Source: Hyphomicrobiales bacterium
GTDB taxonomy: Bacteria; Pseudomonadota; Alphaproteobacteria; Rhizobiales; Xanthobacteraceae
Reading direction: 5' to 3'
Length of the DNA: 64,000 nucleotides
Assembly (NCBI GenBank): GCA_017305665.1
Contig: JAFKKH010000023.1
Span: forward strand, 1 to 64,000
The notes under the pieces were generated by a model. That model searched no databases, was not told the DNA's origin, and saw only the letters and a program-made list of their open reading frames with translations. The position numbers were made by a program, and so were the translations under genes. This document shows positions 23,348 through 61,065 of this stretch, piece after piece (position 1 is the first letter of the stretch; each line of letters begins with the position of its first letter).

Positions 23348-23373
23348 GGGAAGCTAACTGAGGTTAGCTTCCC
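23348..23373. repeat. palindrome copy A (GAAGCTAA-N6-TTAGCTTC)
   Basis: A perfect inverted repeat with 11-bp arms (GGGAAGCTAAC and its complement) around a 4-base loop. The same 8-bp half-sites with a 6-bp spacer recur at 34298-34319 and 61038-61065. The palindrome is flanked by TCGAAAT (23320) and ATTTCGA (23380), the heptamers also found beside copy C. It lies about 110 bp upstream of a small gene on the + strand. An operator for an element-encoded regulator is the simplest reading. Confidence 0.75.
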
Positions 23374-23483
23374 TCCGCAATTTCGAGCTATCCGACATCA
23401 GGGGTTAGACTGGGTCTACCGCTCGGGCATTGGTGGCAATCGACTACATGCACCAGATCCGACTTTCACCATGGAGAATAGCA

Positions 23484-23699
23484 ATGTCGCGAAACCCGTC
23501 AAAGGCCGATATTATGGCCGCCGTTCAGAATCTAATCAAAGCCGGCCACGTTGTTGCGAGGAAGGATGACCACGGAAGAACGGTCTATCTTTCCGTGGAG
23601 GATGCACCATCGGCCGATGAGCCATTACGACGCGGACCGTTGAATAGGCAACCTGGCTCGGAAGCATCGCGCCGTCGTGACGGCCATTCGCGAAAATGA
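23484..23699 (+). CDS. small basic protein, possible winged-helix-like
   Basis: A protein of 71 residues from an ATG at 23484 with GGAGAAT upstream. MSRNPSKADIMAAVQNLI followed by GHVVARKDDHGRTVYLS resembles the recognition helix and beta-wing of a small winged-helix protein, but I do not recognise a family. The tail is basic and rich in Arg, Pro and Gly. It is the first gene after palindrome A and may be controlled by it. Confidence 0.45.
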   Translation: MSRNPSKADIMAAVQNLIKAGHVVARKDDHGRTVYLSVEDAPSADEPLRRGPLNRQPGSEASRRRDGHSRK

Positions 23700-24005
23700 A
23701 AACTCCTTTGTCGTTATACAGTCGGAGATCTGACTGCCCCCTTTCGCATTAAACACGCCCACCTCCGCCCCTTACCGACCTTCACGGAGCTACCGCTAGT
23801 TTTACCAAGTCCCAGATGTTTGACCCCGGTTTTTGATAGCGCATCCTTGTCATGTAAATCGCAAGGAGGCGGTTTTGATCGTGTAGGCCCAGTTGTATTT
23901 GCAGCGCTCGATAGCAATTTCGACGGCCTCGAGCGCGCGCCTGAGGACAGCACGCCGCAGGCATAGATATCGGTGATCTGAACAGGGTCTGTCATGCTCG
24001 TAGCC
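23700..24005. other. short stretch without a clear gene
   Basis: On the minus strand the piece near 23900-23995 reads TDPVQITDIYACGVL in one frame and then loses protein character, so it may be the start of a broken gene. No intact gene is seen. Confidence 0.35.
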
Positions 24006-24242
24006 TCAGCAGGCGCAGGGGGTTCTGATTAAATTGTGGCGAGTGAATCCGATTCCGTCCATTCGGCATGCCGGTTTCAACAGTTGACGACCTACGACCA
24101 GAGCGACAAATGCGCCGCCTAGGATCCAGACGTTCAGCAGTACGATTCCGATGCAAGCCGCCGCGATACTGAGAGACGCCAGAGAAAGTCCGAAACAAAT
24201 ATGATCTCGCAAAGATGTTCGGCCTCGACATAGCTTTTCCAA
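24006..24242 (-). CDS. small membrane protein, weakly supported
   Basis: A 78-codon frame starting with TTG, with two hydrophobic helices (CFGLSLASLSIAAACIGIVL and VWILGGAFVALVVG). No clear ribosome site. The helices suggest a real inner-membrane peptide. It lies in the same strand and gene run as the small genes at 24.3-30.1 kb. Confidence 0.35.
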   Translation of the reverse strand: MEKLCRGRTSLRDHICFGLSLASLSIAAACIGIVLLNVWILGGAFVALVVGRQLLKPACRMDGIGFTRHNLIRTPCAC

Positions 24243-24311
24243 TAACTCACGCCGCTATCTCCTCTTGCTTTGTCGTCGCCGCCCGATCATCCAGGAGACC
24301 CACATCTCAAG

Positions 24312-24539
24312 CTACCTGACGGCCGCCTCTAGTCCCGCTGCCACGGCGCAGGTAGCGCCGACGAGGCGAGCAAGCATGATCTTCTGTTCCTTCGATGCCC
24401 ACCGTTCGGCTTCTTCATCTCACAGGCAGCGCAACACCGCCGGCGCCGCTGAGGTGCGGCTCATCACGCTCTCTTTTTTAGGGTTGAGATCCACTGTATC
24501 GGATTCAAACGCCTTTCGGCTTGCGATGTCGCGGCGCAT
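24312..24539 (-). pseudogene. small gene with an in-frame TGA
   Basis: From an ATG at 24539 with AAGGAAG upstream the frame reads 39 residues to LRCL, then TGA at 24420-24422, then continues in the same frame with protein-like sequence (DEEAERWASKEQKIML, ARLVGATCAVAAG) to a TAG at 24312. The total would be about 75 residues. CGA or TGG to TGA would explain it. Function unknown. Confidence 0.45.
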
Positions 24540-24823
24540 GTATCTTCCTTTTGACGTCATCCGAACCGTATGCGTTGTCGAGGTCATCGACGATTTCATG
24601 CGCTGTGTCGCTGAGATTGCACCGATCGGTTTCATTGCTCGACTAGTCGCTGGCCCCCTTGCTACCAGTCGGCGACAAAAAGAACCGGATCGTCGAACCT
24701 GACGCTGCGACTGCCGTCGACCCTCTTGAGCGGAGCATCGCGTCTGACGCGATATTCGAGCGCGGCAGGCATCGTCACTTCTCCAATCCCGCGAGCATGC
24801 GGCTCGTAACCTCATCCGTCTTG

Positions 24824-25045
24824 TCAGATGCCCTCCGTCACCGCACCTCCGTCGGCGATCAGGCCTTCAGCGACTATTCGATAGACGTCAATGACCTGTC
24901 GTCCACCTTTAGTGACGAACGACAGCAATTGCTTTGAGAGGCCAGCGGTGCTCGCCATCGCGGTCAGCCACCGTGGGCCGCCAAGTAGCCGGCCCACTTC
25001 GATTATTCGACGTGCGCGGGGGCTGATTTTAGCCTCAGCCATCAC
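24824..25045 (-). CDS. small helix-turn-helix protein
   Basis: A protein of 73 residues. SPRARRIIEVGRLLGG then WLTAMASTAGLSKQLLSFVTKGGRQVID fits a small helix-turn-helix DNA-binding domain (the AGLSKQLLS turn). It overlaps the upstream gene by 4 bp (ATGA), so the two are one operon. A regulator of the mobile element is likely, but the family was not identified. Confidence 0.6.
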   Translation of the reverse strand: MMAEAKISPRARRIIEVGRLLGGPRWLTAMASTAGLSKQLLSFVTKGGRQVIDVYRIVAEGLIADGGAVTEGI

Positions 25046-25473
25046 GCAACCGTGTACCGGTCATTGTCATCCAACGCTGATGCGATTGCTGAAAGCGCAT
25101 CGTGGGCGTCGTCAGTCATGCGTCCGACCATGTTTCTTCCGTCCCAATCCACGGAATGGCCCGCTATCACTCGGTCGATCAGCACCGCGAGCTCGCCGCC
25201 CGCGCTCAGGTCATTGCGCAAAGCATCGACATCGACGGTGCAGTCTCCATCCATGGAGCTCGCCAGCGACCACACCAGAGTGCGCCCGTAACATTCATCC
25301 GGCGGTGCGCCATCGCCGCCGTGATACGAGCGCTTGGTCACCATCACGTCGCCCTCCTGGTCGATCATCAGCAGAGCGGCCTCGTAGTAGCGCGCCGGAG
25401 AGTGATCCAGCACGATTTCGCTTGGTACAGCATCGGCGTATCCGGTTGCGGTCTTAGTTGCGGCGGTGGTCAT
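25042..25473 (-). CDS. hypothetical protein of the mobile element
   Basis: A protein of 143 residues from an ATG at 25473 with AGGAGAAG upstream, favoured over an ATG 17 codons before. It is acidic, without membrane segments; PARYYEAALLMIDQEGDVMV and SIDWD-like VDWDGRNMVG are the most structured parts. It overlaps the HTH gene that follows. A half copy of the palindrome (TTAGCTTCCC, 25571) lies about 100 bp upstream. No family recognised. Confidence 0.65.
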   Translation of the reverse strand: MTTAATKTATGYADAVPSEIVLDHSPARYYEAALLMIDQEGDVMVTKRSYHGGDGAPPDECYGRTLVWSLASSMDGDCTVDVDALRNDLSAGGELAVLIDRVIAGHSVDWDGRNMVGRMTDDAHDALSAIASALDDNDRYTVA

Positions 25474-25570
25474 CTGCTTCTCCTGTTGTAGGCGCGAGAA
25501 CATCTTCGCGCGGCGAATGCGCAAGACTCATCTGATTCACGTCGGCTTAAATCAAGAGCGCGATCGCGCG

Positions 25571-25580
25571 TTAGCTTCCC
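25571..25580. promoter_or_regulatory. half copy of the GAAGCTAA/TTAGCTTC palindrome
   Basis: TTAGCTTCCC, identical to one arm of the three full palindromes, stands directly after a GCGATCGC palindrome (25560-25567) and about 100 bp upstream of the minus-strand gene starting at 25473. The other arm is not recognisable. Confidence 0.35.
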
Positions 25581-25792
25581 AACGGCGTTAACCATGGCGC
25601 GTGGACGAGGGAAAGTTTTCGCCAGAAATGCCATTGGCGCGCGATGACGAGGAAAATTCGACAACGAATTCAGTATTGCCTCAGACTTTCACTCAAACAT
25701 TGAGGGAAAGTCTGAGGTAAAGTCTGCGATTTGCGAGGCATTTCGTTTTCCCCGCAATTCTAAGATCTATTGTTGGTGATTCAGTTCGGAGC

Positions 25793-26053
25793 GATGACGC
25801 CCTTCTCCGCGACAAAAATTCACGTGGCGTCGAGCTCGATACGGCTCCGACGCTTGATGACTGGCGCGCGAACATGACGGACGCGTACGGTAAATTCCGG
25901 ATGCATCTCTCCGGTGAGGTCTCAGACCATCTGTCCATTGCAGATGGACATTGCGCGACGTCCGCGGACTGGCTGGATCCGCCTGCGGCGACGTCAGCGC
26001 GATATCTAGCGGCTGGCGACAACGCCCGAATCGGCTCAGACGTTCCAAGATGA
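25793..26053 (+). pseudogene. partial paralogue of the gene at 63344
   Basis: The + strand frame has LSGEVSDHLSIADGHC, TSADWLDPPAATSARY and ends with TGA at 26051. The intact protein at 63344 has LSGEVSGHPSIDNGHC and TSAVVWLDPKERWARTTS at the same relative place. No proper start codon lies in frame here, so the 5' end is probably lost. It overlaps nothing on its own strand. It is one of two links between the 23-34 kb and 57-64 kb parts of the mobile element. Confidence 0.6.
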
Positions 26054-26253
26054 CGCTCTATCGATGACGAAGTTCTGGTAGGAACTGCGTCATATGCAGA
26101 CTCACTGACGAACCGGATACTATCGATCCGCTCGGCGGTGAGTTGGATTCGAGCAAATCGCTCGTAGATCATCCTATTTGTCTCAGACCCAACACGTTTC
26201 TTAATATCTGCGAAGGAAATTTCGTCCTGCTGAACGTCAACATGACGCGTCAT
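26054..26253 (-). pseudogene. N-terminal piece of an unrecognised gene
   Basis: Reads MTRHVDVQQDEISFADIKKR, then RMIYERFARIQLTAERIDSI, with convincing protein character for about 66 residues. Past 26053 the same frame is only the antisense of the + strand paralogue fragment. The gene seems to have been cut by a convergent junction at about 26053. Confidence 0.4.
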
Positions 26254-26283
26254 ATAAAACTCAATGCCGCCCGCCCCCGTACA

Positions 26284-26388
26284 TTAGGCCAACTCGTGCG
26301 ACGTGGCCGAGAATAACGAGTTGTAACGACGTTCGACCCGGGTCGATATCACCAACTTCGTCTTGTACTTCTTGTCGATGAAAAGCAT
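26284..26388 (-). CDS. 34-residue small protein, weakly supported
   Basis: An ATG at 26388 preceded by GGAGGAG-like sequence begins MLFIDKKYKTKLVISTRVER. Basic, with beta-strand-like alternation. It would be the distal gene of the run after 26406. Too short for a family call. Confidence 0.35.
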   Translation of the reverse strand: MLFIDKKYKTKLVISTRVERRYNSLFSATSHELA

Positions 26389-26405
26389 CTTCAGGCTCTC
26401 CTCCT

Positions 26406-26681
26406 TCAATGCAATCTCGGTCCGGTCGCCGCGACGCGCTCGCGGCCAGCGTCGTTGATCGAGAACCCCCTGAACCACGTACCCTCGCAATCGGTCTCTA
26501 ACTCGATCTGATCGACGTATCCGGTGTCGATCAGCGCCTTCGCGTCCGCGGAGTTAACGGAAACGTCGAACATGCTGGTCTGTCGGAATGTGCGAAACCA
26601 CCAATCTGTCCGCCCCTCGAAAGTCTGCGACAGCAGCTCGGCACCATCGTTGAGCTTTCGCAGCATGTCATCGATGTCCAT
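26406..26681 (-). CDS. small hypothetical protein
   Basis: A protein of 91 residues: MDIDDMLRKLNDGAELL, FRQTSMFDVSVNSADAKALI, CEGTWFRGFSINDAGRERV. No family recognised; the composition is normal for a soluble protein. Its ATG follows the stop of the upstream small gene by three bases, so it belongs to the same operon. Confidence 0.6.
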   Translation of the reverse strand: MDIDDMLRKLNDGAELLSQTFEGRTDWWFRTFRQTSMFDVSVNSADAKALIDTGYVDQIELETDCEGTWFRGFSINDAGRERVAATGPRLH

Positions 26682-26684
26682 GGC

Positions 26685-26882
26685 TCATGCTCCCCTGCCC
26701 TGGCGCCGCATCCTGGTGACGACACCCGGCGTCGCCCGCAATCTCCGCTCAGACACAGGCTCGACTGTTCCACAACTGGCCGATCTCGGCATCGCGGAAG
26801 CCAATGCGTGCTGCGGATGGTCGTTCAGACACCAGAACGTGCACTTGTCGGCGTGCAGTGCTTTTTTGAACGAAGTCGTCAT
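26685..26882 (-). CDS. small cysteine- and histidine-containing protein
   Basis: A protein of 65 residues beginning MTTSFKKALHADKCTFWCL, with HPQHALASAMP after it. Its ATG overlaps the stop of the upstream gene (ATGA at 26879-26882) and its stop lies directly before the next ATG, so it fits the tight operon. The Cys/His spacing (CTFWC) might bind metal. Confidence 0.45.
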   Translation of the reverse strand: MTTSFKKALHADKCTFWCLNDHPQHALASAMPRSASCGTVEPVSERRLRATPGVVTRMRRQGRGA

Positions 26883-27154
26883 CGCGAACGGCAATCTTGC
26901 AGCAGGTGGCGACTTCGTACCTGAGGCCCAGGGTGACGGTGTGGGCCATCATCGCCTCTGCCGCCGTCACCTACTTGCATGAGAGCGTATCCGTCCGATT
27001 GAAGGAGGCGCACGAATTGCCGCATTAGATCGTTCACCCGATCAGCATGCTGGTTCGCGGCAGCCTCGATAGCATTCACAGCGGCGGCCGGAAGCGAGGC
27101 GATGGCGGCTGTAGCCGCAGCGCCGGCGACAAGTTGTCGATGACCAACGATCAA
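26879..27154 (-). CDS. small Ala-rich hypothetical protein
   Basis: A protein of 91 residues with an Ala-rich N-terminal helix (LVAGAAATAAIASLPAAAV) then ANQHADRVNDLMRQFVRLL. The C-terminal third is Arg/Gly-rich. ATGA overlaps at both ends place it in the operon. No family recognised. Confidence 0.55.
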   Translation of the reverse strand: MIVGHRQLVAGAAATAAIASLPAAAVNAIEAAANQHADRVNDLMRQFVRLLQSDGYALMQVGDGGRGDDGPHRHPGPQVRSRHLLQDCRSR

Positions 27155-27772: not shown

Positions 27773-28671
27773 CGTCTTGCCTCCTCAGCGTCGCCTGCTG
27801 ATCCGAGCCGGCCCCCGTCGCTATGCATGACGCTGTCCTGGACGTACATCGTCGTCTGATCGCCGGCCGCGGCGCTGGCGATCACGTGCAGACCGTCCTC
27901 GACGACGACCGTCGGATCGTTATGAATCATCAGCCGGACGCCGATGATGGCGGCCATGAGATCGATGAGCGGCTTGAATCGATCGCTGACATCATCGCCG
28001 CCGCGACAGGAGGCTTGCTTCAGATCAATGCCTTCCAGCTCGGCAGTCACGTGCGGCACGTTATTCGGATCACGCAGCGAAAACACGGCGCCACATGGCC
28101 CGCGGTCATCATAAAATCCACCACCGACGCAGTTGCCCATCGCGAATCCCTCGGCGTCGCGGGCGGCGTCTGATTTAAGCCAGACCCACCGCCATCCAAG
28201 CCACTCGCCGTCTAGTTCAAGCACCGCGGGCGCGCCCTCATCGTCGCGTTCGATGGCGCGGTTGTAGAGCTTCTCGGCAGCCCGCCGCATGGATTCGTGC
28301 CAGCGCGTCGCGGCGTCGATCATTTGCCGGAACGACATGCGGCGGTTCAGGATCGCGCGGTGGTGACGCGGTGAGTGGAGATGGACCTCGGCGAGCCAGT
28401 CGCATACGTGATCTATGTCGTCCGTCGATCCAGCCGACAGATCGACCACGAAAACGGGTCGCAAACCGCGAGCTTTGGCCGCGATGGCGGCGGGTTTGTC
28501 AACATCGATTCCACGAGGATCAATCGCCGAAAAATCACGGGTCACCGCGTGACCGCGAATCATGTGGTCGTGAATAGCATCATGCACGGCGGCGTCGACG
28601 TCAGCATCGCGCGAAAATTCGACGCTGCCAACGAATTCATTCAAATTCAGAATCCAGATGCGCTCGCTCAC
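27769..28671 (-). CDS. PcfJ-like protein of a mobile element
   Basis: A protein of 300 residues. The C-terminal half carries the pattern of PcfJ-like proteins found on phages and conjugative elements: GNCVGGGFYDDRGPCG (about 179-194), then SLRDPNNVPHVTAELE (198-213) and KQASCRGGDD. The first half is less conserved. PcfJ-like proteins are of poorly known function, though a nucleic-acid role is suspected. ATGA overlaps with the metallophosphoesterase upstream and the small gene downstream make one operon. Confidence 0.65.
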   Translation of the reverse strand: MSERIWILNLNEFVGSVEFSRDADVDAAVHDAIHDHMIRGHAVTRDFSAIDPRGIDVDKPAAIAAKARGLRPVFVVDLSAGSTDDIDHVCDWLAEVHLHSPRHHRAILNRRMSFRQMIDAATRWHESMRRAAEKLYNRAIERDDEGAPAVLELDGEWLGWRWVWLKSDAARDAEGFAMGNCVGGGFYDDRGPCGAVFSLRDPNNVPHVTAELEGIDLKQASCRGGDDVSDRFKPLIDLMAAIIGVRLMIHNDPTVVVEDGLHVIASAAAGDQTTMYVQDSVMHSDGGRLGSAGDAEEARR

Positions 28672-29234
28672 AGCTTCAGCCCTCCACCGCCAAGGTCTTC
28701 GATGTCGTTGCGGGCCTCGGGATCAGCCATCAGCGGCAGTGTCGCCAAGTAGTCCTTGATCTGCGCCAAGCGCAGCGGCGCGAAGCCCATCACGTCGACG
28801 CCGATGTCGCAGCTCTGCGTGTTTCCTCGCAACCGACCGTGGCTGTGGCCGTGCAGCATCAGCGCGCCCTTACGGATCTTCGGCCATTGCCTCATGCCGT
28901 AGTGGCACAGCACCACGTTCTGGCTGTCGATCGACGCATACGCGATGTCGCGCTGCGATTCCCAGGGGAGAGCCTGGGTCGCCCTGCCATCGTGGTTTCC
29001 TTTGATGAGGTGCTTGCGGCCGTTTAGCGCGGCGAACAGCTTCGGCAGCTTGTCAGCCGGGTAGTGATGCGCGAAGTCGCCGAGGTGGATGACGGTGTCG
29101 TCGGACCTGACCACCGAATTCCACTCAAGCACCATCGCCGCGTCCATCTCACGCGAGTTTGCGAACGGCCGTTTGCAAAGCTCGATGATACCGTCGTGGC
29201 CGAAGTGGGTGTCACTAATGAGATATGTTGCCAT
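28668..29234 (-). CDS. calcineurin-like metallophosphoesterase
   Basis: A protein of 188 residues with all the metal-binding blocks in order: SDTHFGHDG (D8, H10), HLGDFAHH, KGNHDGRAT, LCHYGMRQWP and LHGHSHG. This short class of phosphoesterases acts on nucleotides or phosphodiester bonds; many phages carry one. It overlaps the PcfJ-like gene by 4 bp and is one base from the end of a second, unrelated metallophosphoesterase. Confidence 0.9.
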   Translation of the reverse strand: MATYLISDTHFGHDGIIELCKRPFANSREMDAAMVLEWNSVVRSDDTVIHLGDFAHHYPADKLPKLFAALNGRKHLIKGNHDGRATQALPWESQRDIAYASIDSQNVVLCHYGMRQWPKIRKGALMLHGHSHGRLRGNTQSCDIGVDVMGFAPLRLAQIKDYLATLPLMADPEARNDIEDLGGGGLKL

Positions 29235-29235
29235 C

Positions 29236-30105
29236 TCAGGTCCCCCACTTCTGCGTCAACGTCAGATCGCGGCCGACTTCGACAACCAGTGCCGGATCGA
29301 AATCCGGGTTCTCACGCTTGCCGCCGCGCATCGGATAGCCGCGCGGGTTCGCGACGACGCGGGTCGCACCGATCATCATGTCGCGGTTGACGTGAATGTG
29401 ACCGTGCAGCCAGAGCGCCGGCGCGTTGTCGCCGTGCATCAGGGCTTCGAGATTGCTGGCATAGCACCAGTCCAGATCGTCGAACTGACGGCCCTCGTTC
29501 CGCAGCGAATAGTATGTCGGCGCGTGATGCGTCACGACCACCGTCTCACCGTCGAACGGCGTCGCCAGTGTGCGCTCGATGAACGCCCGCGACGCCTTAT
29601 GTGCGTTCACGGTGTCGCGGGGGCGTAACGTATCCTTCGATCGACCGGGATCAACCTTGATGGCTCGATAGTCGTTCATACCACGCGAGCCGCAGGCTTC
29701 TCTGACCGCAAAGTCGAACGACATGTACCCCGGCCGCGCGGAGAAATCGCTCCATAGCGTGGCGCCGATGAACCGCACGCCGTCGATTTCGGCCACCGCG
29801 TCGTCGAGCAATGTGATGCCGAGTTCGGTAGCGACCACCGGCATCTCTTCACGCTGGCACTGCCATGTCGTTTTAAGTTCCGGGCGCTTCAGATCGTGAT
29901 GCGAATAGAAGTCGTGGTTGCCCGGCACATAGATCAACGGACGGCCGCGATCCGGATACAGCGCACGCACGCGGCGCAACGCCAATGTGCCCGGCGCCAT
30001 CGCATCGCCAGCGACGACTGAGACGTCGGCATCGACGCCGGGCATCGCGTCAATTGAGTTGTCGCGAATGTCGCAATGCAGGTCTGAAACGAAATGAATA
30101 CGCAC
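29236..30105 (-). CDS. second metallophosphoesterase
   Basis: A protein of about 289 residues with the blocks FVSDLHCD, VVAGDAM, PGNHDFYSHH, VVTHHAP and LWLHGHIHVN. The GTG at 30105 has GGAGGGG upstream and puts the first block at the N-terminus as usual; the longer frame from 30201 does not. It belongs to a different subgroup from the downstream paralogue (longer insertion between GNHD and the HH motif). First gene of the long minus-strand operon. Confidence 0.88.
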   Translation of the reverse strand: MRIHFVSDLHCDIRDNSIDAMPGVDADVSVVAGDAMAPGTLALRRVRALYPDRGRPLIYVPGNHDFYSHHDLKRPELKTTWQCQREEMPVVATELGITLLDDAVAEIDGVRFIGATLWSDFSARPGYMSFDFAVREACGSRGMNDYRAIKVDPGRSKDTLRPRDTVNAHKASRAFIERTLATPFDGETVVVTHHAPTYYSLRNEGRQFDDLDWCYASNLEALMHGDNAPALWLHGHIHVNRDMMIGATRVVANPRGYPMRGGKRENPDFDPALVVEVGRDLTLTQKWGT

Positions 30106-30198
30106 GCTGAAACCCCTCCAAATCTGCCGATCGCTCGAATTCGATCGATCGACATTAAGCTTCCTTAACACGTCCTGTTCCATAATGCCACTGATAGG

Positions 30199-30219
30199 CA
30201 CACATTGTGTGTCTATAAA
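30199..30219 (+). promoter_or_regulatory. palindromic operator and -10 element before the 30237 gene
   Basis: CACACA-T-TGTGTG (30199-30211) is a near-perfect palindrome placed directly before TATAAA (30214-30219), which suits a -10 box 18 bases before the ATG at 30237. It probably binds a repressor. Confidence 0.4.
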
Positions 30220-30236: not shown

Positions 30237-30542
30237 ATGGCCGGTGACCACACCAACTTCAACCAGGGAGCCTTCACTGCGGGTGCGGTGACCGGCTCTG
30301 CCACCATTGCCGGCGCAATGGTGGCAGGCTTCAGGAACGTCGCGCATGCACGGCGTGAGCGCGCAGTGGTTAACGCCATCAGCGGCCGCGATGCACTGAT
30401 CGGATCGCTGCAGCGTCGGATCGACAAGCAGCGTGATGAGCTCGCTCGGCGTGACGCAGTGATTTCTGAGCAGGCGTTCACGATCAGAGAACTCCAGATC
30501 CGACTTCAAATGTCGAACTTGCTTCGTCAGAAGGGTCGCTGA
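30237..30542 (+). CDS. small coiled-coil membrane-associated protein
   Basis: A protein of 101 residues with a good AAGGAGA site. The N-terminal third has a Gly/Ala-rich hydrophobic stretch (FTAGAVTGSATIAGAMVAG). The rest is a charged helix with coiled-coil character (QRRIDKQRDELARRDAVIS). No family recognised. It overlaps the 3' end of the minus-strand gene that follows by 59 bp (convergent). Confidence 0.65.
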   Translation: MAGDHTNFNQGAFTAGAVTGSATIAGAMVAGFRNVAHARRERAVVNAISGRDALIGSLQRRIDKQRDELARRDAVISEQAFTIRELQIRLQMSNLLRQKGR

Positions 30543-31017
30543 TCAAACCACCGGTGCCCGGCGCAGGCCGCGGCTCCGGTGGCCATTCCACGCGCTCCAG
30601 CGGCCGCACGCTCCTGACGCCAGTCAGAAGCTCTGAGCTCCTTATATGCGCGTAAACCGCTGCATATTCAGCGCAGCCGAGCGCGAAGCACTCTTCGCGT
30701 GTCAGCCTTGGCAGCCACTCGGCGATCTTGCGCGGCATGTTCGCCGGCATCGACGCCGGCGCATCGGCCGTCAGGCTCTCCACGCACCACTGCATCACCG
30801 CCAGGGCGACTTGCTCATAGACCTTCGTCAGGTCCTCGGTCTTCGACGGCGCCGGCACGTCTTCCGTCTCAGGCGTTGCCGCCGGCAATGGTGGCACGTC
30901 AGATCCGCCGCCAAACGCGGCATCCAGCGCACGAAATGGCGCCGTCACGACGCCGCCAACCAGGCGGCCGATCGCTTTCAGACCAGCGACAATCGCCGAA
31001 AAAATCTTCTTCAACAT
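30484..31017 (-). CDS. hypothetical protein with amphipathic N-terminus
   Basis: A protein of 177 residues. The first about 35 residues form a Gly/Ala-rich amphipathic segment (KIFSAIVAGLKAIGRLVGG), followed by a Pro-rich linker and a helical domain (LTKVYEQVALAVMQWCVESL, LPRLTREECFALGCAEY). Membrane association is possible. Its 3' end overlaps the gene at 30237. Family not recognised. Confidence 0.6.
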   Translation of the reverse strand: MLKKIFSAIVAGLKAIGRLVGGVVTAPFRALDAAFGGGSDVPPLPAATPETEDVPAPSKTEDLTKVYEQVALAVMQWCVESLTADAPASMPANMPRKIAEWLPRLTREECFALGCAEYAAVYAHIRSSELLTGVRSVRPLERVEWPPEPRPAPGTGGLISDPSDEASSTFEVGSGVL

Positions 31018-31174
31018 GGCCTCTCTCCTCTGACTTCAGGGTATCGAACCTCGGAAGTCAGCAAGACCAAAACATTTTTTGTCCCACTCCCTGATTTTCT
31101 TCGCGCTTGACACGTGGCACATGATATGTCTCTTTTTAGTGTGACTTACTATTTTTATCGCTTTTTGTTTGCCC

Positions 31175-31501
31175 ATGAACCAGAGTTGCCGAGTGGCCGA
31201 GAATGCATTGAAGGAAGTCCCAGCGACGCAGGCTGGGCGCATCAAATGGGTGGCGCAGCGGCTGTATCCGCTGGGCCGGTGGCGGATGCGGATCGCAAAG
31301 GAACTCGGCATCGGCCGATCCACGCTTTATCGCTATCTTGCTCGGCGCAAAGACTGCGTCAGGGGCTTGGACGATGAACTCCGCACGCTGATGGCGCGCG
31401 AGCGCATCGCGTCGCAGTCTCGCGCTCGCAAAATCGCGAAGGCCGAGAAGGATTTCGACGCGCATCTCGCGCGCTCCGCTAACGACGGAGTGGCGAAATG
31501 A
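31175..31501 (+). CDS. small helix-turn-helix protein
   Basis: A protein of 108 residues. The core IKWVAQRLYPLGRWRMRIA then KELGIGRSTLYRYLARRK is a clear helix-turn-helix (resolvase or Cro-like). The C-terminal tail is charged. ATGA overlap with the next gene marks the first gene of a + strand operon (31175-34172). Confidence 0.7.
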   Translation: MNQSCRVAENALKEVPATQAGRIKWVAQRLYPLGRWRMRIAKELGIGRSTLYRYLARRKDCVRGLDDELRTLMARERIASQSRARKIAKAEKDFDAHLARSANDGVAK

Positions 31502-33548: not shown

Positions 33549-34172
33549 ATGGCAAAGATCAGCGACAAAATCCGGATATTGTCCGGCATGCGCGGCGGCT
33601 GCACCTTCGCGCACGTGCGCTCGCTCACTCACGGTCGCAGCCACTACTACGCGGAAGATGACTACCTCCGGCATCCCACCGGCCGCGAGTGGACGATCAG
33701 GTACTCGACCGTCATCTCCGCCGTCGAGGCCGGCCTGATCGATTGAGGACCAGCGATCGACTTCCATCGCGATCAGTGTAACGCCCACCTCTGGGTGCTG
33801 ACGCCGGCCGGCCAGGCCGCCGCCGCGGCGCTTCCGCCGGTCGAACTCGATGCCTTGTTCGTCACGCCGACGCCGACCCCGCCGGAGGTGCTGGAGGCCG
33901 CACGGCACAAGCGGCTGGCGGCAAAGGTCATGAAGGCGATGACATTCACCGGCGGCCGGATCCGCGGCGACTACGTCATGTTCGTCGGCGCAGGTTCGCT
34001 GGTCGGCTACAGCTACATCAGCGCATTCCGCGAGCCGCTGCCGGCCGGCGTCTTGGCTTTGCTCGCGCCGTATTGCGAGCGGTTCGTTGCCGTCGACGGC
34101 AAGGAAAGCCTGCGGATTACCCAGGCCGGCATTGCCGAGACGGCGCGACGACAGAAAGTTACGAGCGCGTAA
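33549..34172 (+). pseudogene. wHTH-like gene with an in-frame TGA
   Basis: Two open frames in the same phase are separated by one TGA (33744-33746): MAKISDKIRILSGMRGG ... VISAVEAGLID, then GPAIDFHRDQCNAHLWVLTP to a TAA at 34170. The junction reads like a winged helix ending in LTPAGQAAA. CGA (Arg) to TGA would explain it. As read it is a 65-residue protein plus an orphan 3' part of about 140 residues, with no good start of its own (GTG at 33795). Confidence 0.65.
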
Positions 34173-34244
34173 TCTTCGAAAATTCTTCGTTACAGAAGTG
34201 GGGATGTAACGGGGGGCGTCGGAAAATTGAGCGCACATGTGATG

Positions 34245-34260
34245 GCGTCACGTGTGACGC
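34245..34260. repeat. palindrome upstream of copy B
   Basis: GCGTCAC-GT-GTGACGC, seven-base arms, extended by outer GAT/ATC with one bulge. First of three palindromes in 75 bases. Confidence 0.6.
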
Positions 34261-34265
34261 ATCAG

Positions 34266-34294
34266 CAATCGCACTCTAACATAGCGTGCGATTG
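34266..34294. repeat. inverted repeat directly before palindrome copy B
   Basis: CAATCGCAC and its exact complement, nine-base arms, 11-base loop. Copy C at 61038 is likewise preceded by an inverted repeat. Confidence 0.65.
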
Positions 34295-34297
34295 TGG

Positions 34298-34319
34298 GAA
34301 GCTAAGGAGCCTTAGCTTC
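34298..34319. repeat. palindrome copy B (GAAGCTAA-N6-TTAGCTTC)
   Basis: GAAGCTAAG-GAGC-CTTAGCTTC, nine-base arms; the outer TGTG/CACA also pairs partly. Same 8-bp half-sites and same 6-bp spacing as copies A and C. It lies 3' of the + strand operon and 5' of an IS transposase. Confidence 0.75.
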
Positions 34320-34456
34320 ACAGTCTGTGAATACTGATTGAACTTTGCCCCCTCAATCAAGTCGTATAAAAATCTTAGAGGCCGACCGGAAATTAAAGTT
34401 GGATGATTTCAGCAGGTTGTGATTCTTCGAGGTGTTCGAATCCATCGGAGAAGCAG

Positions 34457-35266
34457 ATGACCTGGACCGAAATCACCCGCTGTCAGCATGACAGACGAGA
34501 GCTGCGCTATGCAAGCGATTGTACGGATGCGGAATGGGGCTGGATCGAACGGTTGATGCCAAGGCCGAGCAAAGTCGGGCGCCCGCGCAAGACTTGCATG
34601 CGATCGGTATGGGATGCGATCCAGTACATTGCGACGACGGGATGCCAATGGGCGCTTTTGCCCAGGAATTTTCCTCCCTTCACGACGATCCAGTACTATT
34701 TTTATCGGCTGCGCGACAGCGGCGTGTTGGATTTGATCAATGAAGCCCTGGTTGAAATCGCGCGCAGGCTTGCTGGGCGGGCGTCGCAATCAACGGCAGC
34801 GATCATCGACAGTCAATCGGTCAAGACGACCGAGAGCGGAGGGCCACGCGGCTTTGGTGCGGGCAAGAAGATCAAAGGTCGCAAGCGCCATATCGTCCCT
34901 GATACACAAGGAAATTTGCTGAGCGCTATCGTGCACCCGGCTAATGTTCAGGATCGGGACGGTGCGCCGGCTGTCGTCGCTTTGGCGTGTGCGAGCTATC
35001 CAACGATAGCACATTTGTTTGCTGACGGCGGCTATGCCGGCGAAAAGCTTGAAAACGCGCTCCGGAAAATCGACGGACCAACGATTGAGATTGTCAAATG
35101 TCCGGACGACGCAAAAGGATTCGTTATTATTGCCCGACGCTGGGTCGTCGAACGCACATTGGCGTGGCTCAACCGCTGTCGACGTCTTGCCAAGGATTGG
35201 GAGGCCTCCGTCACCTCGGCTGAAGCATGGCTTCAGCGGATCTCCATACGGGCCCGCGGCGTGTGA
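34457..35266 (+). CDS. IS5-family transposase
   Basis: A protein of about 269 residues. CTDAEWGWIERLMP at the start, TGCQWALLPRNFPPFTTIQYY, then IDSQSVKTTESGG (first catalytic Asp) and GRKRHIVPDTQG, DGGYAGEKL (second Asp), and VVERTLAWLNRCRRLAKDWE (Glu) make the DDE triad of IS5 elements of the IS1031/IS4811 type. The C-terminus (WLQRISIRARGV) departs from the family (usually WL.IA.IRL..RRLA), so the 3' end may be altered. I could not find terminal inverted repeats. Confidence 0.8.
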   Translation: MTWTEITRCQHDRRELRYASDCTDAEWGWIERLMPRPSKVGRPRKTCMRSVWDAIQYIATTGCQWALLPRNFPPFTTIQYYFYRLRDSGVLDLINEALVEIARRLAGRASQSTAAIIDSQSVKTTESGGPRGFGAGKKIKGRKRHIVPDTQGNLLSAIVHPANVQDRDGAPAVVALACASYPTIAHLFADGGYAGEKLENALRKIDGPTIEIVKCPDDAKGFVIIARRWVVERTLAWLNRCRRLAKDWEASVTSAEAWLQRISIRARGV

Positions 35267-53885: not shown

Positions 53886-55374
53886 GCAGGCTGTTGAAGA
53901 AGTCGGTAGCGAAGCGTTTCGTATCGTGATTCTCTAGAACCAGGATTTGTCTGGAGGACGCGATGCGGGGAAGTGATGAACGGTCCGGCTCGCTTTTCAG
54001 TTATGTCGACCTGGAGGCCCGGGTTCGCGGCGACCACCCGCTACGGGTGATCCGGAACTTGGCGAATGCGGCGTTGGGCGACCTTTCTGGAGAGTTGGGC
54101 GAACTCTACACAGACTTCGGCCGCCCCTCGATCGCACCGGAGAAGTTGCTCCGGGCGATGCTGCTGCAGGCGTTTTATGGGGTTCGCTCGGAACGGCATC
54201 TGATGGAACGGATGGAGTTCGATCTTCTATTTCGCTGGTTCGTCGGGCTCGGCGTGGACGATGCGGTTTGGGACCATTCGACGTTCTCGAAGAACCGCGA
54301 CCGACTGCTTGAGGGCGAGGTTGCGGCCAAGTTCCTGAATGCGCTTTTGGCGCAGCCGAGGGTCAAGCGTCTGCTATCGAGCGATCACTTCTCGGTGGAT
54401 GGTACGCTGATTGAAGCCTGGGCTTCGATCAAGAGCTTCCGGAGGAAGGATGGTAGCGACAATGACCAGGACGGTCCGGGACGCAATGCCGAGCGCAGCT
54501 TCCACAAGGAGAAGCGATCCAACGAGACCCATGCCAGCACGACCGATCCCGAGGCTCGGCTCTACAAGAAGGGTGACGGCCAGCCGGCCAAGCTGAGCTA
54601 TATGGGCCATGCGCTGATGGAGAACCGCAATGGTCTGGCGGTTTTGGGTGGGGTCAGCCAAGCCACGGGCACCGCCGAACGGGAGGTTGCGCTTGCCATG
54701 ATCGACAGGCGCGGCGGCGCGCAGCGGATCACCCTGGGGGCGGACAAGGCCTACGACGTCACGCAGTTCGTCCACGACCTGAGAGATAGATCCGTTACTC
54801 CGCATATCGCGATTGATGGACGTCTGAGTAAGACCGGCAAGCGGCGCAAGACAGCGATCGACGCGCGGACCACGCGTCACAGTGGTTACGACGTCAGCCA
54901 GCGTTGCCGCAAACGCATCGAAGAAATCTTCGGCTGGATCAAGAGTTCCGCTGGCTTGGCCAAGGTCAAGCTGCGAGGTCGCGACCGGGTGGATGCTGTC
55001 TTCGTCCTGGCGCTTGCGGCCTATAATTTGATCCGGCTTCCCAAGCTTCTGGCGGCACCGGCATGAGCATTCGGGGCAGATGGCAGGTCGTCGAGACACC
55101 GGGCTATGACATGGCCTTGGCGAGCGCCTATATCCTGTTCAATGAGGCCGGCGGCGAATTCGCCTTCGACTGCCTCACGGGCTCTATTGATGGAGTCTGC
55201 CACGGCGATGCCGTCGAGTTCGGCTGGCAAGGAAACGACGAAATGGAGCCCGCCGAGGGGAACGGCTGGGCTGAACTGCAGGATGACGACTCACTCGAAG
55301 GAGAGATTTGCCTCATCAACGGCGACAACATCCCCTTCATCGCCCGACGTCCAAACACTTCTTCAACAGCCTGC
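53886..55374 (+). mobile_element. IS5-superfamily element with a passenger gene
   Basis: Perfect 18-bp terminal inverted repeats (GCAGGCTGTTGAAGAAGT and its complement at 55357-55374) with TA on both outer sides. Contains a transposase gene and a second gene overlapping it by 4 bp. Confidence 0.85.
53963..55066 (+). CDS. IS5-type transposase
   Basis: A protein of 367 residues. SYVDLEARVRGDHPLRVIR, then PSIAPEKLLRAMLLQAFYG, FVGLGVDDAVWDHSTFSKN, FSVDGTLIEAWASIKSFR (first Asp), ITLGADKAYDV (second Asp), RKRIEEIFGWIKSSAGL (Glu) complete the DDE motif. Its stop overlaps the start of the passenger gene (ATGA). Confidence 0.9.
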   Translation: MRGSDERSGSLFSYVDLEARVRGDHPLRVIRNLANAALGDLSGELGELYTDFGRPSIAPEKLLRAMLLQAFYGVRSERHLMERMEFDLLFRWFVGLGVDDAVWDHSTFSKNRDRLLEGEVAAKFLNALLAQPRVKRLLSSDHFSVDGTLIEAWASIKSFRRKDGSDNDQDGPGRNAERSFHKEKRSNETHASTTDPEARLYKKGDGQPAKLSYMGHALMENRNGLAVLGGVSQATGTAEREVALAMIDRRGGAQRITLGADKAYDVTQFVHDLRDRSVTPHIAIDGRLSKTGKRRKTAIDARTTRHSGYDVSQRCRKRIEEIFGWIKSSAGLAKVKLRGRDRVDAVFVLALAAYNLIRLPKLLAAPA

Positions 55375-57094: not shown

Positions 57095-57327
57095 CTTTCT
57101 GGTTTCACGAATTTTCGCTCCGATTGAGCAACTTTAGCTGTGCGCGAGATTTCCTAATTTGTGCTTAAAAAGGCGTTGTCGCCCTGCCCGCTTAAATCGG
57201 CCCGCGCATGAACATCTTTACGATTTTGCGGCGCTCTTCATAAATGCCGCTTGACGAGGCACTTCGGGTGCCAGCCTTTCCATCTCGTGCAATCGTAATT
57301 GCGACAAATCGCAAAGACGGAAGCACG

Positions 57328-57684
57328 ATGATTATTGGCGTTCTTAATCAGAAAGGCGGCGTGGGCAAAACCACCATCGCCATCAACCTGGCAGCGGTCG
57401 ACGCCCGAAGCGGGCAGCGCGTGCTGTTCATCGATGCGGACCCGCAGGGTAGCGCGCTCGCCTGGTCAACGGCACGCGAGGCCGATCCCCTGTTTACCGT
57501 CGTCGGCATGGCCAAGCCCACGCTGCACAGGGAGCTGCCGCACATGAGCGGCGACTACGACGTGGTCATCATCGACGGCGCACCGCGGGTCAGTGAACTG
57601 GCACGATCGGCCATCATGGCCAGCGACCTGGTGATCATTCCGGTACAGCCGTCGCCGTATGACGTGTGGGCAACCACCGCCTGA
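57328..57684 (+). pseudogene. parA: ParA-type ATPase, C-terminal end missing
   Basis: [20 protein letters not shown] with the deviant Walker [24 protein letters not shown] and [13 protein letters not shown] are present. After VW the frame soon ends (ATTA, stop at 57682), where ParA should continue about 90 more residues. The junction at about 57675-57685 is shared with the truncated minus-strand gene that follows. Confidence 0.75.
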
Positions 57685-57863
57685 ACCAAATCAGGGATAT
57701 CCAGTGAAAGCTGACCGGACTGGTATGCAGTGAACACCGCTTCGCGGAGTGCGCTGTCAAAGGCCGGAATCGATGGTTCGCCGCGCTCGCGCTTGCGCTG
57801 ACGGCATGCACGCTGGCGGTCGGCCGGTGAAATGGCTGTTGGTGATGCTGCGTCGTCGCTCAT
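57685..57863 (-). pseudogene. fragment of a small gene convergent with parA
   Basis: Minus-strand: MSDDAASPTAISPADRQRAC, RQRKRERGEPSIPAFDSAL, REAVFTAYQSGQLSLDIPDL. The protein character ends at the parA junction, so its 3' part is lost. Confidence 0.5.
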
Positions 57864-57937
57864 GTCGGCGACGCTGAAGGCGGACAGCTAATTAAACTAC
57901 AGCGGAATGTGACAGGTCACGCTGGCTGCGGACGCAA

Positions 57938-57971
57938 AGAAGCCCTTGCGGAGTGGTCAGCAAGGGCTTCT
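57938..57971 (-). terminator. minus-strand terminator
   Basis: Perfect 12-bp stem AGAAGCCCTTGC with GCAAGGGCTTCT, ten-base loop; on the minus strand it is followed by a TTCTTTG run. Suits the end of the gene at 58074. Confidence 0.75.
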
Positions 57972-58073
57972 CCGATTGTGCTCACAAACCTCGCCAAAGG
58001 ACCGTGACACTCAGATAAGATTGCCGCTGGTCCGGCAAGTCGCAAGAGTCAGTCGAAAATATTTTGTGACACG

Positions 58074-58484
58074 TCACCGTGAAGGTGACTCCCCGACCTT
58101 CCGGTCATCCGGCAGGAGCCGATTACGGAGCCGGCGCAGAACCAGCAGCACCTGATCTCGCGCGAAACCGCGGGCCTCGAGATCAGCCAGCGCCGCGGTA
58201 ACGAAGCCAACCTCAGCACTGGTCAGGTTCAACAAATCCGACGTCACCAGCGCAGCGACCAATGACATGCCGATCTCATGGGCCTCCGGCCGCCTTAGGC
58301 GATCGAGATCATTACGCCAGGCTGCCGTTCGCGCACGGGTCTTGGCCCGTCGGACTCGGATGTCCTCTCGCTGACGGGGTTTAACGAAGACCGTCGACGG
58401 CCGATCCGGATTCCGAAAAAGCGACGACTCCCGCTCATGGTCGATCTCGGCGACCAGCTGATCGACATCCGAAGACCGCATCAT
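58074..58484 (-). CDS. hypothetical protein downstream of the replicase
   Basis: A protein of 136 residues: MRSSDVDQLVAEIDHERES, VRRAKTRARTAAWRNDLDRL, SLVAALVTSDLLNLTSAEVG. Charged and helical, possibly DNA-binding or a partition helper. It follows the replicase gene on the same strand beyond the repeat array. Confidence 0.6.
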   Translation of the reverse strand: MMRSSDVDQLVAEIDHERESSLFRNPDRPSTVFVKPRQREDIRVRRAKTRARTAAWRNDLDRLRRPEAHEIGMSLVAALVTSDLLNLTSAEVGFVTAALADLEARGFARDQVLLVLRRLRNRLLPDDRKVGESPSR

Positions 58485-58573
58485 GATTCAGCTTCCCGCC
58501 ACATTGAACCGAGTTCCGACACTGAATCTCGATCCAGCAAGGATCAAGGCTTTCAAGGATTGATTCCAACACA

Positions 58574-58893
58574 GACCACCGATGACAGCCTCTACACACG
58601 AGACCACCGGAGCTAACAGCTGACCACCGGATCACCGGCTGACAGATGAAATGGAATAATGAAACTGGAAGACCGAGACCACCGGAAGCATGCTGACGTC
58701 GGCCTACACGATGCTTACGACCACCGGATCGCGAACACGGTCGACCGTCGACAGGCATGCTTCCGCTGGCCTGTCGGCATGATTGTGCTGCTGACAGCCT
58801 GGTGGACCTGCTGTTGAACTCGGATAATCGATATCCGGGGCACCGGAATCTACTGTTCTGATCAGCTGACACCCGGAATCGGTGTTGATGACA
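58574..58893 (+). repeat. direct repeats (GACCACCGGA) at the 3' end of the replicase gene
   Basis: GACCACCGGA occurs exactly at 58602, 58622, 58677 and 58719, with a near copy at 58574; CACCGGAAT-like words follow at 58842, 58871 and 58893. All in the same direction, part of them inside the C-terminal coding end of the replicase. Iteron-like; a candidate origin. Confidence 0.6.
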
Positions 58894-60878
58894 CCAGAAT
58901 TGCTGGCAAGGAAGGAAGCAAGAGCAGGTGAAGTGGTGATCACCTTCACCGTGGTAGGTCTTGCTTTTTCTCTATACACACCTTCGCGGAATTCCAGATC
59001 CAGTTCCGCGCAGAGGTCGTCCCAGTGTTTGTACGCCGCGGATTTGCCGACGGTACCGAGGCTCTTGATGAACTCGGTCTTATCGATCGCGCCATACTTC
59101 TTGAGCGCGACGACCATCTCCTTGCAGATGTTCCATTTGAAGACAGCGCTGCGGTGGTCGGCTGACCGCGCGAACGCCTGCTGCTGCCGTTCCTTCAGGC
59201 TCATGCAGTCGTCGATGACGTCGCGATCGCGTCCTCGGACCTTCCGCTTCCATGGCTTCGCCAGCCGTTCGATGCAGTACCGCGCCGCGAACTCGCAGCG
59301 CTTGGCCAGCAGGCGGTCGAGTGCTTCGCTGGGGCCGAGCTCGGCCTCGACGTCAGCGCGGATGCTGTCGTCGAACCAGGCGGCCAGGGTGCCGACGCCG
59401 GCCTTGGCGGCCGCCATGAAGTCGTCCTCGCGCACCGCCAGCTGCGTGCGCGCCCGCGGCTCGATCAGATGGCCGATGGTTTTCCAGGCCAGGTTCGATG
59501 GGGTCTGTGCCGGCAGGTCACCGGCGGCATCGGCGCGAATGGTCGCAGCGGCCTTGGCCAGCGAGTGCTCATCGACCTTCCGTGGCCAGCCTGGGATCGA
59601 CTCGAAGTCGGAAAGCTCGTGCCAGACGTCGTCGTTAGCGACGACCGTCGTCCAGAAAGGCGACAGCGCATTTTTCGGCTTCAGGATGTTGTGGAATGAC
59701 GGATCGGCGCCGAGCGGCAGCAGCAGCTGCGTCAGCGCCCGCTGGACGGCGTGAAGCTTCTTGATTGGCTTTGTTTTGCACCTCTTGTCGCCGCCGGAGG
59801 TGACTACGCCCGTCGACGGGTCGACGCGCTCCCAGTACGGGTCGGTCCAGACCGGGTTTTTCAGGATCCAGATCAGGTGCGGCCGGCTGAGGAAGCCGGA
59901 CGGCGTGATGCGGCCGACGATCAAGTTCGGCATGCGGTGCGGACCTAGGATCGCGAGCAGCTGGATGCGGAACTCCTCGATACGAAGCACGCTGTCGAGA
60001 TCGACGACGATGCAGCCGGCAACCTTGCGGTTCAGTTCAACATAAGGCGCGTCGAGCGCGAAGAGCTTGCAGGTCGCGTCATGCAGCGCGGCCTTGTCGT
60101 AGCCAGCGCGCAGCCCCGACGCGACCGTCGGACAAAGAGCCGCCATTCGAGCGAGGCTCGGCGACCCCAGACGCGAGCGCAGAACGCCGGCGCCGAAAAA
60201 TTCGAAGAGCCGGCCGCAGACTTCGCCGGCGACGACGGCGCCGCCGGCGTGATAGAAGCCCCACCGCAGGCGGTCTCGAATCTCTTCTTTGCGCTCGCGA
60301 GTGACGCCGGCCCACTTTTCTCGCTCCTTGAGCGCCTTGGCCGCCTCGGCTGGATCTACCTTGCCGGCGGCTATGTCTTCTGTCTTGTAGCCGGCGCGCA
60401 AGGCGCGGCGCCGGTTCTTGGCGGCGCGATCGGCACGCTTCTTCTCGTGCTCGCGGTCGGCCTTTTCCTGAGCGGCGGTTTGAAAGCCGACGAGGGCTTG
60501 GTGTTCGCTTCCTTCGATGTAGTCGAAGTGCCGGAATGCATCTTTGCTGTAAACGAGCTTGGCCTCGTCCACGACCGCTTCCAGTTCGGCCGGCTCGAAG
60601 AACTTCCGGTCATCAGGATGGACGGTCGCCTCCATGGTGATCCGGCGCAAAATCTGAACCGACTGCGCGTTCTCGCTCTCGTGCTCCAACGGCGGAGCGG
60701 CGGGGATGTCGGCCGGCTGCGTCTCAGTGAACAGCCGGTAATTCATGCGCTGGATCACGTCGCCGTTCGGATCGCGATCTGCAAGCTGCAGGTCATGCAG
60801 CTGCAGCCTCGAAAGCACGCAACATTCGTGCTCATCGAGCAGCTTTCGGCGTGACGTGTTTAACTGTTTGAAGCGCAT
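58704..60878 (-). CDS. RepA-like replicase / primase
   Basis: A protein of about 724 residues. The middle part (APYVELNRKVAGCIVVDLD, PNLIVGRITPSGFLSRPHL, IWILKNPVW, LGADPSFHNILKPKN) resembles the replicase family of ColE2-like plasmids and related phage primases (archaeo-eukaryotic primase fold). The N-terminal about 130 residues and a helical charged segment after it are of unknown role; the C-terminal part has helix-turn-helix character (SLGTVGKSAAYKHWDDL). The last about 35 residues are low quality because they cross the iteron-like repeats. Start at 60878 is preferred over 60908. It is the core of the replicon. Confidence 0.65.
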   Translation of the reverse strand: MRFKQLNTSRRKLLDEHECCVLSRLQLHDLQLADRDPNGDVIQRMNYRLFTETQPADIPAAPPLEHESENAQSVQILRRITMEATVHPDDRKFFEPAELEAVVDEAKLVYSKDAFRHFDYIEGSEHQALVGFQTAAQEKADREHEKKRADRAAKNRRRALRAGYKTEDIAAGKVDPAEAAKALKEREKWAGVTRERKEEIRDRLRWGFYHAGGAVVAGEVCGRLFEFFGAGVLRSRLGSPSLARMAALCPTVASGLRAGYDKAALHDATCKLFALDAPYVELNRKVAGCIVVDLDSVLRIEEFRIQLLAILGPHRMPNLIVGRITPSGFLSRPHLIWILKNPVWTDPYWERVDPSTGVVTSGGDKRCKTKPIKKLHAVQRALTQLLLPLGADPSFHNILKPKNALSPFWTTVVANDDVWHELSDFESIPGWPRKVDEHSLAKAAATIRADAAGDLPAQTPSNLAWKTIGHLIEPRARTQLAVREDDFMAAAKAGVGTLAAWFDDSIRADVEAELGPSEALDRLLAKRCEFAARYCIERLAKPWKRKVRGRDRDVIDDCMSLKERQQQAFARSADHRSAVFKWNICKEMVVALKKYGAIDKTEFIKSLGTVGKSAAYKHWDDLCAELDLEFREGVYREKARPTTVKVITTSPALASFLASNSGVINTDSGCQLIRTVDSGAPDIDYPSSTAGPPGCQQHNHADRPAEACLSTVDRVRDPVVVSIV

Positions 60879-60997
60879 CACTCGATCCGGGTGGCGAGGT
60901 GAGCGCATAAGATTGAGCTGGCGCCGGAAAGCGTCAAGCTCGCTCGTGAAAAAAATCGTGCAAAAACAACGGCCAAGGTGCCATCATTGGTGTGACG

Positions 60998-61036
60998 GGA
61001 CTTTGTCCGATAACCCAACTTATCAGGACAAAGTCC
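60998..61036. repeat. inverted repeat upstream of the replicase
   Basis: GGACTTTGTCCGATAA pairs with TTATCAGGACAAAGTCC (one extra A) across six bases. Each arm is itself a small palindrome. About 120 bp before the replicase start. Confidence 0.7.
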
Positions 61037-61037
61037 T

Positions 61038-61065
61038 CGGGAAGCTAAGTCGAGTTAGCTTCCCG
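61038..61065. repeat. palindrome copy C (GAAGCTAA-N6-TTAGCTTC)
   Basis: CGGGAAGCTAA and its perfect complement (11-bp arms, six-base centre GTCGAG), two bases after the previous inverted repeat. Same half-sites as copies A and B. Lies about 160 bp upstream of the replicase start, suiting an operator. Confidence 0.8.

Follow-up and report, generated by a model that had tools for sequence, protein, structure and literature searches.

The window analysed here is the whole 64,000-nucleotide stretch at positions 1 to 64,000 of contig JAFKKH010000023.1 (assembly GCA_017305665.1, Hyphomicrobiales bacterium), which holds genes of a replicase-bearing mobile element and three exact copies of a palindromic dyad, GAAGCTAA-N6-TTAGCTTC, at 23350-23371, 34298-34319 and 61041-61062. 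We propose, with a probability of about 0.5, that this dyad is recognised by one sequence-specific DNA-binding protein common to a family of integrating elements that carry a replicase. The full 10-N6-10 dyad would be occupied by a dimer, half sites would act as weaker or cooperative sites, and the bound protein would control the integrase, the replicase and the accessory operons of the element. The candidate binder is the ribbon-helix-helix (RHH)-like protein encoded at 61272-61805, or a different protein of the element that accompanies it. Binding, the direction of regulation and action in trans are predictions made from sequence.

The sequence of the dyad is a direct observation. All three 22-bp copies have the same 6-bp spacing, as an earlier note on this DNA had claimed; the positions 23348 and 61038 given there for two of them are the starts of longer arms. 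The copies and the repeats beside them are as follows.

23348..23373, copy A: GGGAAGCTAA-CTGAGG-TTAGCTTCCC, a full dyad with arms of at least 10 bp
34296..34321, copy B: GGGAAGCTAA-GGAGCC-TTAGCTTCAC, with one mismatch, in the outer arm
61039..61064, copy C: GGGAAGCTAA-GTCGAG-TTAGCTTCCC, a full dyad with arms of at least 10 bp, 26/26 identical on contig C16
25571..25580, minus strand, half site: one exact 10-bp arm, TTAGCTTCCC
34266..34294, inverted repeat before copy B: CAATCGCAC-N11-GTGCGATTG, 9-bp arms
60999..61035, inverted repeat beside copy C: GACTTTGTCC...GGACAAAGTC, near-identical on C16

At up to three mismatches the window holds no further dyad (100 shuffles gave a mean of 0.19 and a maximum of 2). 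The half copy reported at 25571 is present as the single exact arm listed above, and the inverted repeats said to precede copies B and C are real. Copies A and C and the half site had also been placed upstream of gene starts, and our reading of these starts from the sequence agrees: copy A ends about 110 bp from the ATG at 23484, copy C starts about 130 bp from the replicase ATG at 60908, and the half site lies about 97 bp from a minus-strand ATG at 25473. ATTTCGA heptamers do stand close to copy A (23320, 23380) and copy C (61109, 61135, 61223, 61233), but they carry less weight than the earlier note gave them because the whole window contains 19. Another inverted repeat, CCTCAGACTTTC...GAAAGTCTGAGG at 25680-25718, is found close to the half site, in a flank that the latter has in common with a dyad at L120:11142 and a half site at L166:19109 (G, C and L numbers denote genomes, contigs of the own genome and loci).

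The dyad is rare in its own genome (5,025,433 bases, 47 contigs), which contains four exact copies, the three in the window and one on C16, and six when the 10-bp arms may carry up to two mismatches. Those beyond the window are C12:66673 (two mismatches), C16:27221 (exact) and C16:31857 (two mismatches), the last two of which sit in a related element. Of 13 bare-arm occurrences, seven are on C12, three on C16, two on C43 and one on C4; collapsed to 10 exact-arm sites, nine fall on C12, C16 and C43, or 8.1% of the genome (binomial 1.5e-9, for contigs chosen after the fact). All three contigs bear genes of this element family. C43 has relatives of two window genes (families A3 and A5), so that a third, related element is probably located there. 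One of the C43 half sites abuts the start of a sequence that we read as resembling an integrase N-terminus.

The genome-wide dyad search suggested in the earlier note thus returned few copies, on mobile contigs, rather than many scattered ones. That the dyad is a repetitive extragenic palindromic (REP) or bacterial interspersed mosaic element-like repeat, or a product of chance, is scarcely credible. A scan of all public bacterial sequence for the 22-bp core (16 fixed bases) did return 77 stretches in 257 Gb, near the ~60 expected by chance, but the dyad is present in few copies per genome that cluster on mobile contigs. Moreover, the 26-bp motif with up to two mismatches was found in 17 of 391 family genomes and its reversed control in none (0/391), and seven of the nine public stretches with GGG/CCC arms come from Rhodopseudomonas, Bradyrhizobium or Bradyrhizobiaceae. 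A REP-like repeat was rejected on the genome-wide copy numbers (four exact, six with two mismatches) and on the location of the arms on mobile contigs.

With one mismatch allowed, the 26-bp motif was observed in one of 347 genomes sampled across the order, and the exact pattern in one of 200 relatives, in both cases the own genome. Ten stretches with the 22-bp core were observed on viral contigs, none of which carries the GGG/CCC arms at both ends, and nucleotide searches of plasmids with the stretches of copies A and C and the L118 B block (described below) gave no match. Within the samples taken, the dyad therefore appears restricted to one alphaproteobacterial family (Bradyrhizobium/Rhodopseudomonas relatives), whose name comes from the named records of the public 22-bp scan. 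L127, G001 and some further two-mismatch sites may be chance. Literature searches revealed nothing recognisable as this dyad and no description of an element family with replicase, RHH, AAA and DUF6634 genes.

The dyad recurs at homologous positions, and there its footprint is more conserved than the surroundings. The clearest case is an integrase family (A6) with an arm-binding domain (PF13356), which from our reading of its conserved residues is probably tyrosine-recombinase-like. Five copies of its gene were found in 43 genomes and all five are preceded by a dyad, 125-141 bp from the integrase start or 268 bp in a truncated copy; the site thus stands before integration genes on several elements. 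Four of these loci have the same order, namely a tRNA 3' half, 39 bp, the dyad, GTGACCCAG-like repeats and the integrase. We read the anticodons by eye as Tyr (three loci) and Lys (one), and ARAGORN calls the tRNA at L123 only. The dyad is conserved and its distance to the tRNA half is exactly 39 bp, even though the integrases have diverged (two of them share only 57-60% identity with the first). The GTGACCCAG-like direct repeats lie directly before the integrase start (L120:7770-8060, L121, L123 and L128) and are perhaps arm-type sites or an operator.

A second recurrent place is the surroundings of copy B. A non-coding block with a second dyad is common to copy B, L079, L114, L118, L131 and two sites of L122.

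34175..34321 (approximate limits), B block: ~150 bp of conserved non-coding DNA with copy B at its end
34188..34211, second conserved dyad of the B block: CGTTACA...TGTAACG

In another explanation, the dyad is the core site of a tyrosine recombinase of the element or the host, comparable to dif or pdif with a 6-bp crossover region, and lies at the borders of exchangeable modules. The 10-N6-10 arms end in TAA/TTA, the spacers differ between most copies, and the sites are close to integrases and to cargo genes (CBASS, Wadjet and TIR, for example). Homology is confined to one side of the site in L162, L164 and L165, and to the block side when copy B, L079, L114 and L131 are compared with one another. 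Such a site would fit the N6 architecture and these one-sided homologies, the latter being also expected when a site follows the terminal gene of a conserved operon. We nevertheless regard it as unlikely, in view of the separate tRNA-anticodon core that we read 39 bp away at the integrase loci, the 5-bp spacer of the dyad at L122:9287, and the C12 and C16 sites, which share their spacer and have homologous ground on both sides.

Copy C lies before the replicase gene, and its C16 counterpart is about 100 bp before the corresponding gene. Between the two, the dyad is identical at 26 of 26 positions, the inverted repeat nearly so, and the flanks are 80-90% alike; at the L060 replicase an exact half site is kept. 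The replicase leader (60995-61110) contains three strong hairpins in a row (-54.4 kcal/mol, z -6.7), with ATTTCGAGAGTCGAAAT and AATAGGT-type repeats nearby that are kept on C16, and has the look of an origin or a region of copy control. A counterpart of the copy-C inverted repeat, TGTCCGATA...TATCGGACA, was observed at L170:10817-10852 (G240), some 900 bp past the RHH start and with no dyad there.

Dyads are also found behind an operon of AAA and DUF6634 genes in L060, L130 and the own C12 and C16 elements, and half sites 0.5-1.4 kb behind the AAA gene in L159, L162, L164, L165, L166 and L167. Across 17 RHH-AAA loci (308,636 bases) there are eight exact half sites, whereas shuffled 10-mers averaged 0.45; a single one of 3000 such shuffles reached eight, and this one may have been identical to the arm. 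The exact arm is absent from 10 of the 17 (L129, L130, L132, L158, L160, L161, L163, L168, L169 and L170), and in L129 a dyad immediately precedes the RHH gene. L132:13918-13943, on Bradyrhizobium japonicum plasmid p1S06B, is a variant palindrome, GGGAAGCCA-N8-TGGCTTCCC, with both arms changed together, 7 bp behind the AAA-DUF6634 operon. The distance from dyad to gene start is often 100-170 bp.

A further possibility is that the dyads serve an excised and replicating form of the element as centromere-like (parS-type), relaxosome or origin sites, to which the RHH protein would bind in partition or transfer. One element has several scattered sites that are not all promoter-linked, the B block is conserved and non-coding, and RHH and replicase genes coincide with the strongly folded intergenic DNA at copy C. 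However, among the selected window proteins that were scanned no ParA or ParB was named, save a weak ParB-like PHROG match of the helix-turn-helix (HTH) protein at 31169, and the AAA protein is of the PF00004 type. Queries from one Bradyrhizobium plasmid gave no type IV secretion system match in the fetched loci, and in none of the 13 fetched survey RHH loci does an exact arm lie between the RHH and replicase genes. We thus hold such a role to be quite improbable.

Several features of the sites fit a dimer that would read each arm: the fixed arms, uncompensated mismatches, preferred central bases and single-arm sites. The arm mismatches are, in our reading of the sites and of the aligned B sites among them, mostly uncompensated, as for sequence recognition and not for a stem. 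After symmetrisation of 30 sites, gathered with fixed arms so that only spacer and flanks are informative, T occupies spacer position 2 in 63% and C position 3 in 65%.

As to the protein, the RHH family (A2) is present in 8 of 17 dyad genomes and in none of 26 controls (Fisher 1.7e-4); the controls, used for families A2, A3, A5, A6 and A7 alike, were chosen for lacking the dyad. A wider survey, less biased than these controls but with nine candidates scored per genome, found it in 17 of 381 genomes. Six RHH carriers without a dyad are known, of which five were fetched, and in three of these (G301, G433 and G437) an exact half site is located close to the RHH gene; G045, a weak RHH match, was left out of the fetched loci. 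The AAA family (A7) at a plain threshold does not track the dyad (9/17 dyad genomes, 8/26 controls), and its matches above 500 bits come from seven genomes, all with dyads. Because of its co-occurrence counts compared with A3, A5 and A7, the RHH protein is the best single candidate, though nine dyad genomes do without it. As sole binder, each of A2, A3, A5, A6 and A7 was rejected, since each tracks the dyad only partly. The structural model of the RHH protein has a strand-helix-helix at residues 51-90 (predicted local distance difference test score 69-86 in this block, mean 52) between long low-confidence tails. None of its 21 Foldseek matches, Arc, CopG and TacA among them, is significant, and searches of PDB sequences and Pfam gave no significant match and no match, respectively.

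A number of observations weigh against one protein bound at every site. None of the element families compared is found wherever the sites are: 9 of 17 dyad genomes have no RHH family member, A3 and A5 track the dyad in the same way as RHH (each 6/17 dyad genomes, 0/26 controls), and the integrase occurs in 4 of the 17. Conversely, when 14 RHH carriers were scanned for dyads, eight had one and six had none at two mismatches. The bare arm is not enriched in the own genome (13 occurrences, 11 for the reversed control). At the A6 loci the dyad is apparently, in our own reading, far upstream of any -35-like box. Copy B is not obviously an operator, because the DNA around it and its relatives is a conserved non-coding block and three of the seven B-block sites are between convergent genes. 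These blocks and the 5-bp spacer at L122:9287, a dyad that precedes a gene homologous to one beside L120:11142, argue against a pure operator. Finally, 5 of the 30 sites have a palindromic flank extension of at least 4 bp with differing outer bases, which none of 20,000 permutations equalled in number.

We cannot account for this last feature through protein binding alone, and it hints at a hairpin; the dyad could act as RNA or DNA structure, for instance as a terminator, attenuator or processing site. A 12-bp stem is predicted at copy C, and in L060, L160, L162 and L165 sites lie directly behind operons. We consider this very unlikely: the conserved half sites are unable to fold in this way, the B-block alignment gives a covariation term of +1.3 with mismatches mostly uncompensated, the window has no Rfam match at gathering scores, and the flanks of 29 sites show no consistent T-run after the dyad (L116 alone has five T's near). 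An intrinsic terminator in particular fits poorly, as a GC-rich stem with a T-run behind it is not seen at these 29 sites.

The genes of the window that matter for the proposed recognition site are given below; calls in the fetched loci were made with a custom GC3 script and no annotator.

23484..23699, plus strand: small open reading frame of 71 amino acids, MSRNPSKADIM..., ~110 bp past copy A, start read from sequence
24824..25045, minus strand: small protein of family A3, with no Pfam, PHROG or PDB match; HTH-like as a guess
25042..25473, minus strand: open reading frame starting ~97 bp from the half site, start read from sequence
28668..29234, minus strand: calcineurin-like phosphoesterase
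29236..30201, minus strand: metallophosphoesterase with relatives in eight compared dyad loci
30484..31017, minus strand: family A5 protein with no assigned function
31169..31501, plus strand: HTH protein, resolvase-type HTH_7
33795..34172, plus strand: gene whose 3' end faces copy B, with a relative in L131
58704..60908, minus strand: replicase, PF03090 just below the cut-off
61272..61805, minus strand: RHH-like protein, family A2, candidate binder
61887..63329, plus strand: AAA ATPase, PF00004, family A7
63344..63634, plus strand: DUF6634 protein

Transposase genes of the IS4/5 type (34403-35266) and with DUF772 (53963-55066) are also present, the first one 81 bp from copy B.

The element genes form two sets, one at 24-34 kb (A3, metallophosphoesterases, A5) and the other at 58-67 kb (replicase, RHH, AAA, DUF6634). 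Both are on one contig in G206, G454, G294 and, ~125 kb apart, G277, and on different contigs in G260. This linkage leans towards one element. The earlier note had suggested one regulator for several transcription units of a single element now split by insertions. Part of this holds, in that the dyad is rare, family-restricted, better conserved than its surroundings and often before genes, and the gene sets are linked; the doubts over copy B, the many single-arm sites, the nine dyad genomes without RHH and the dyads on other islands do not suit it.

Other islands have dyads too, and defence genes are often their neighbours there. In 7 of 23 loci outside the own genome, genes close to the dyad are, by Pfam or homology, known or likely to serve in defence.

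L115: MTES_1575 nuclease-helicase; metabolic genes adjoin too
L116: TerB, BrxC/D and a DEAD helicase, with AbiU2 on the opposite side
L118: homologues of the L124 CBASS genes
L119: Wadjet JetA and an SMC-like protein
L122: CAP12 TIR
L124: CBASS-type E2/ThiF and SIR2
L126: SAVED and Tle1-like proteins

Weaker candidates are found in three of the 23 (L022, L123 and L127), and neighbours in the remaining 13 were scanned in part. The off-site control, with 47 of 61 called proteins from four of six fetched regions (L156 and L157 left out), matched five PADLOC families at 1e-20; the 48 dyad-adjacent proteins matched 254 at a laxer 1e-5, and the thresholds of the two counts thus differ. Because this control is thin, the adjacency to defence genes is a suggestive lead. 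In L122 (6794-17882, G294), an 11-kb stretch with the TIR (CAP12) gene lies between two direct dyads whose spacers are identical and whose flanks are duplicated; a truncated integrase adjoins it.

Since the site is also on unlinked islands, the protein proposed to bind it may act in trans on those that have integrases or anti-phage systems. More specifically, and tentatively, one element-borne protein might read the 26-bp palindrome both on the elements and on unlinked islands with CBASS, Wadjet, TIR and further anti-phage systems, and so make their expression or excision depend on the element's state; we find this possible but doubtful. If so, defence islands would ride on the switch of another element. 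If the dyad is a shared regulator box, this sequence tag would group otherwise unrelated islands of Bradyrhizobium, Rhodopseudomonas and their relatives into one network. The dyad also marks the element family with replicase, RHH, AAA and DUF6634 genes.

The dyad is reminiscent of several known systems. KorA and KorB of IncP plasmids are global regulators with dispersed palindromic operators that have a TTAGC core. Several dispersed palindromic sites on one element and the TTAGC core are found here too, but half-site orientation and spacing differ, and no KorA or KorB was named among the proteins scanned. RHH repressors such as CopG, Arc, TraY and ParG bind short repeats. The protein described here resembles them as a small, putatively beta-alpha-alpha protein encoded beside a replicase and differs in its long low-confidence tails; its binding is predicted. 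The dif and pdif sites of XerC/XerD are 28-bp, 11-6-11 sequences with an inner TAA...TTA and variable spacers, found at module borders. The dyad shares the two arms around a 6-bp centre, the inner TAA...TTA, the variable spacers and the module borders. Its core is 10-N6-10 (position -1 is T in 50% and A in 33%). It departs from dif and pdif in its near-perfect symmetry, in one 5-bp spacer and apparently, as compared by eye, in its arm sequences. Finally, AcaCD of IncA/C plasmids and SGI1 is reported to be a FlhDC-family activator that acts at the xis promoter (PMC4605294; compare PMC4207636). The dyad differs in being palindromic, in preceding int and in a cargo that is often made of anti-phage genes, with a binder that is a candidate. 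What the two would have in common is a mobile-element regulator with sites both on the helper and before the recombination genes of unlinked islands.

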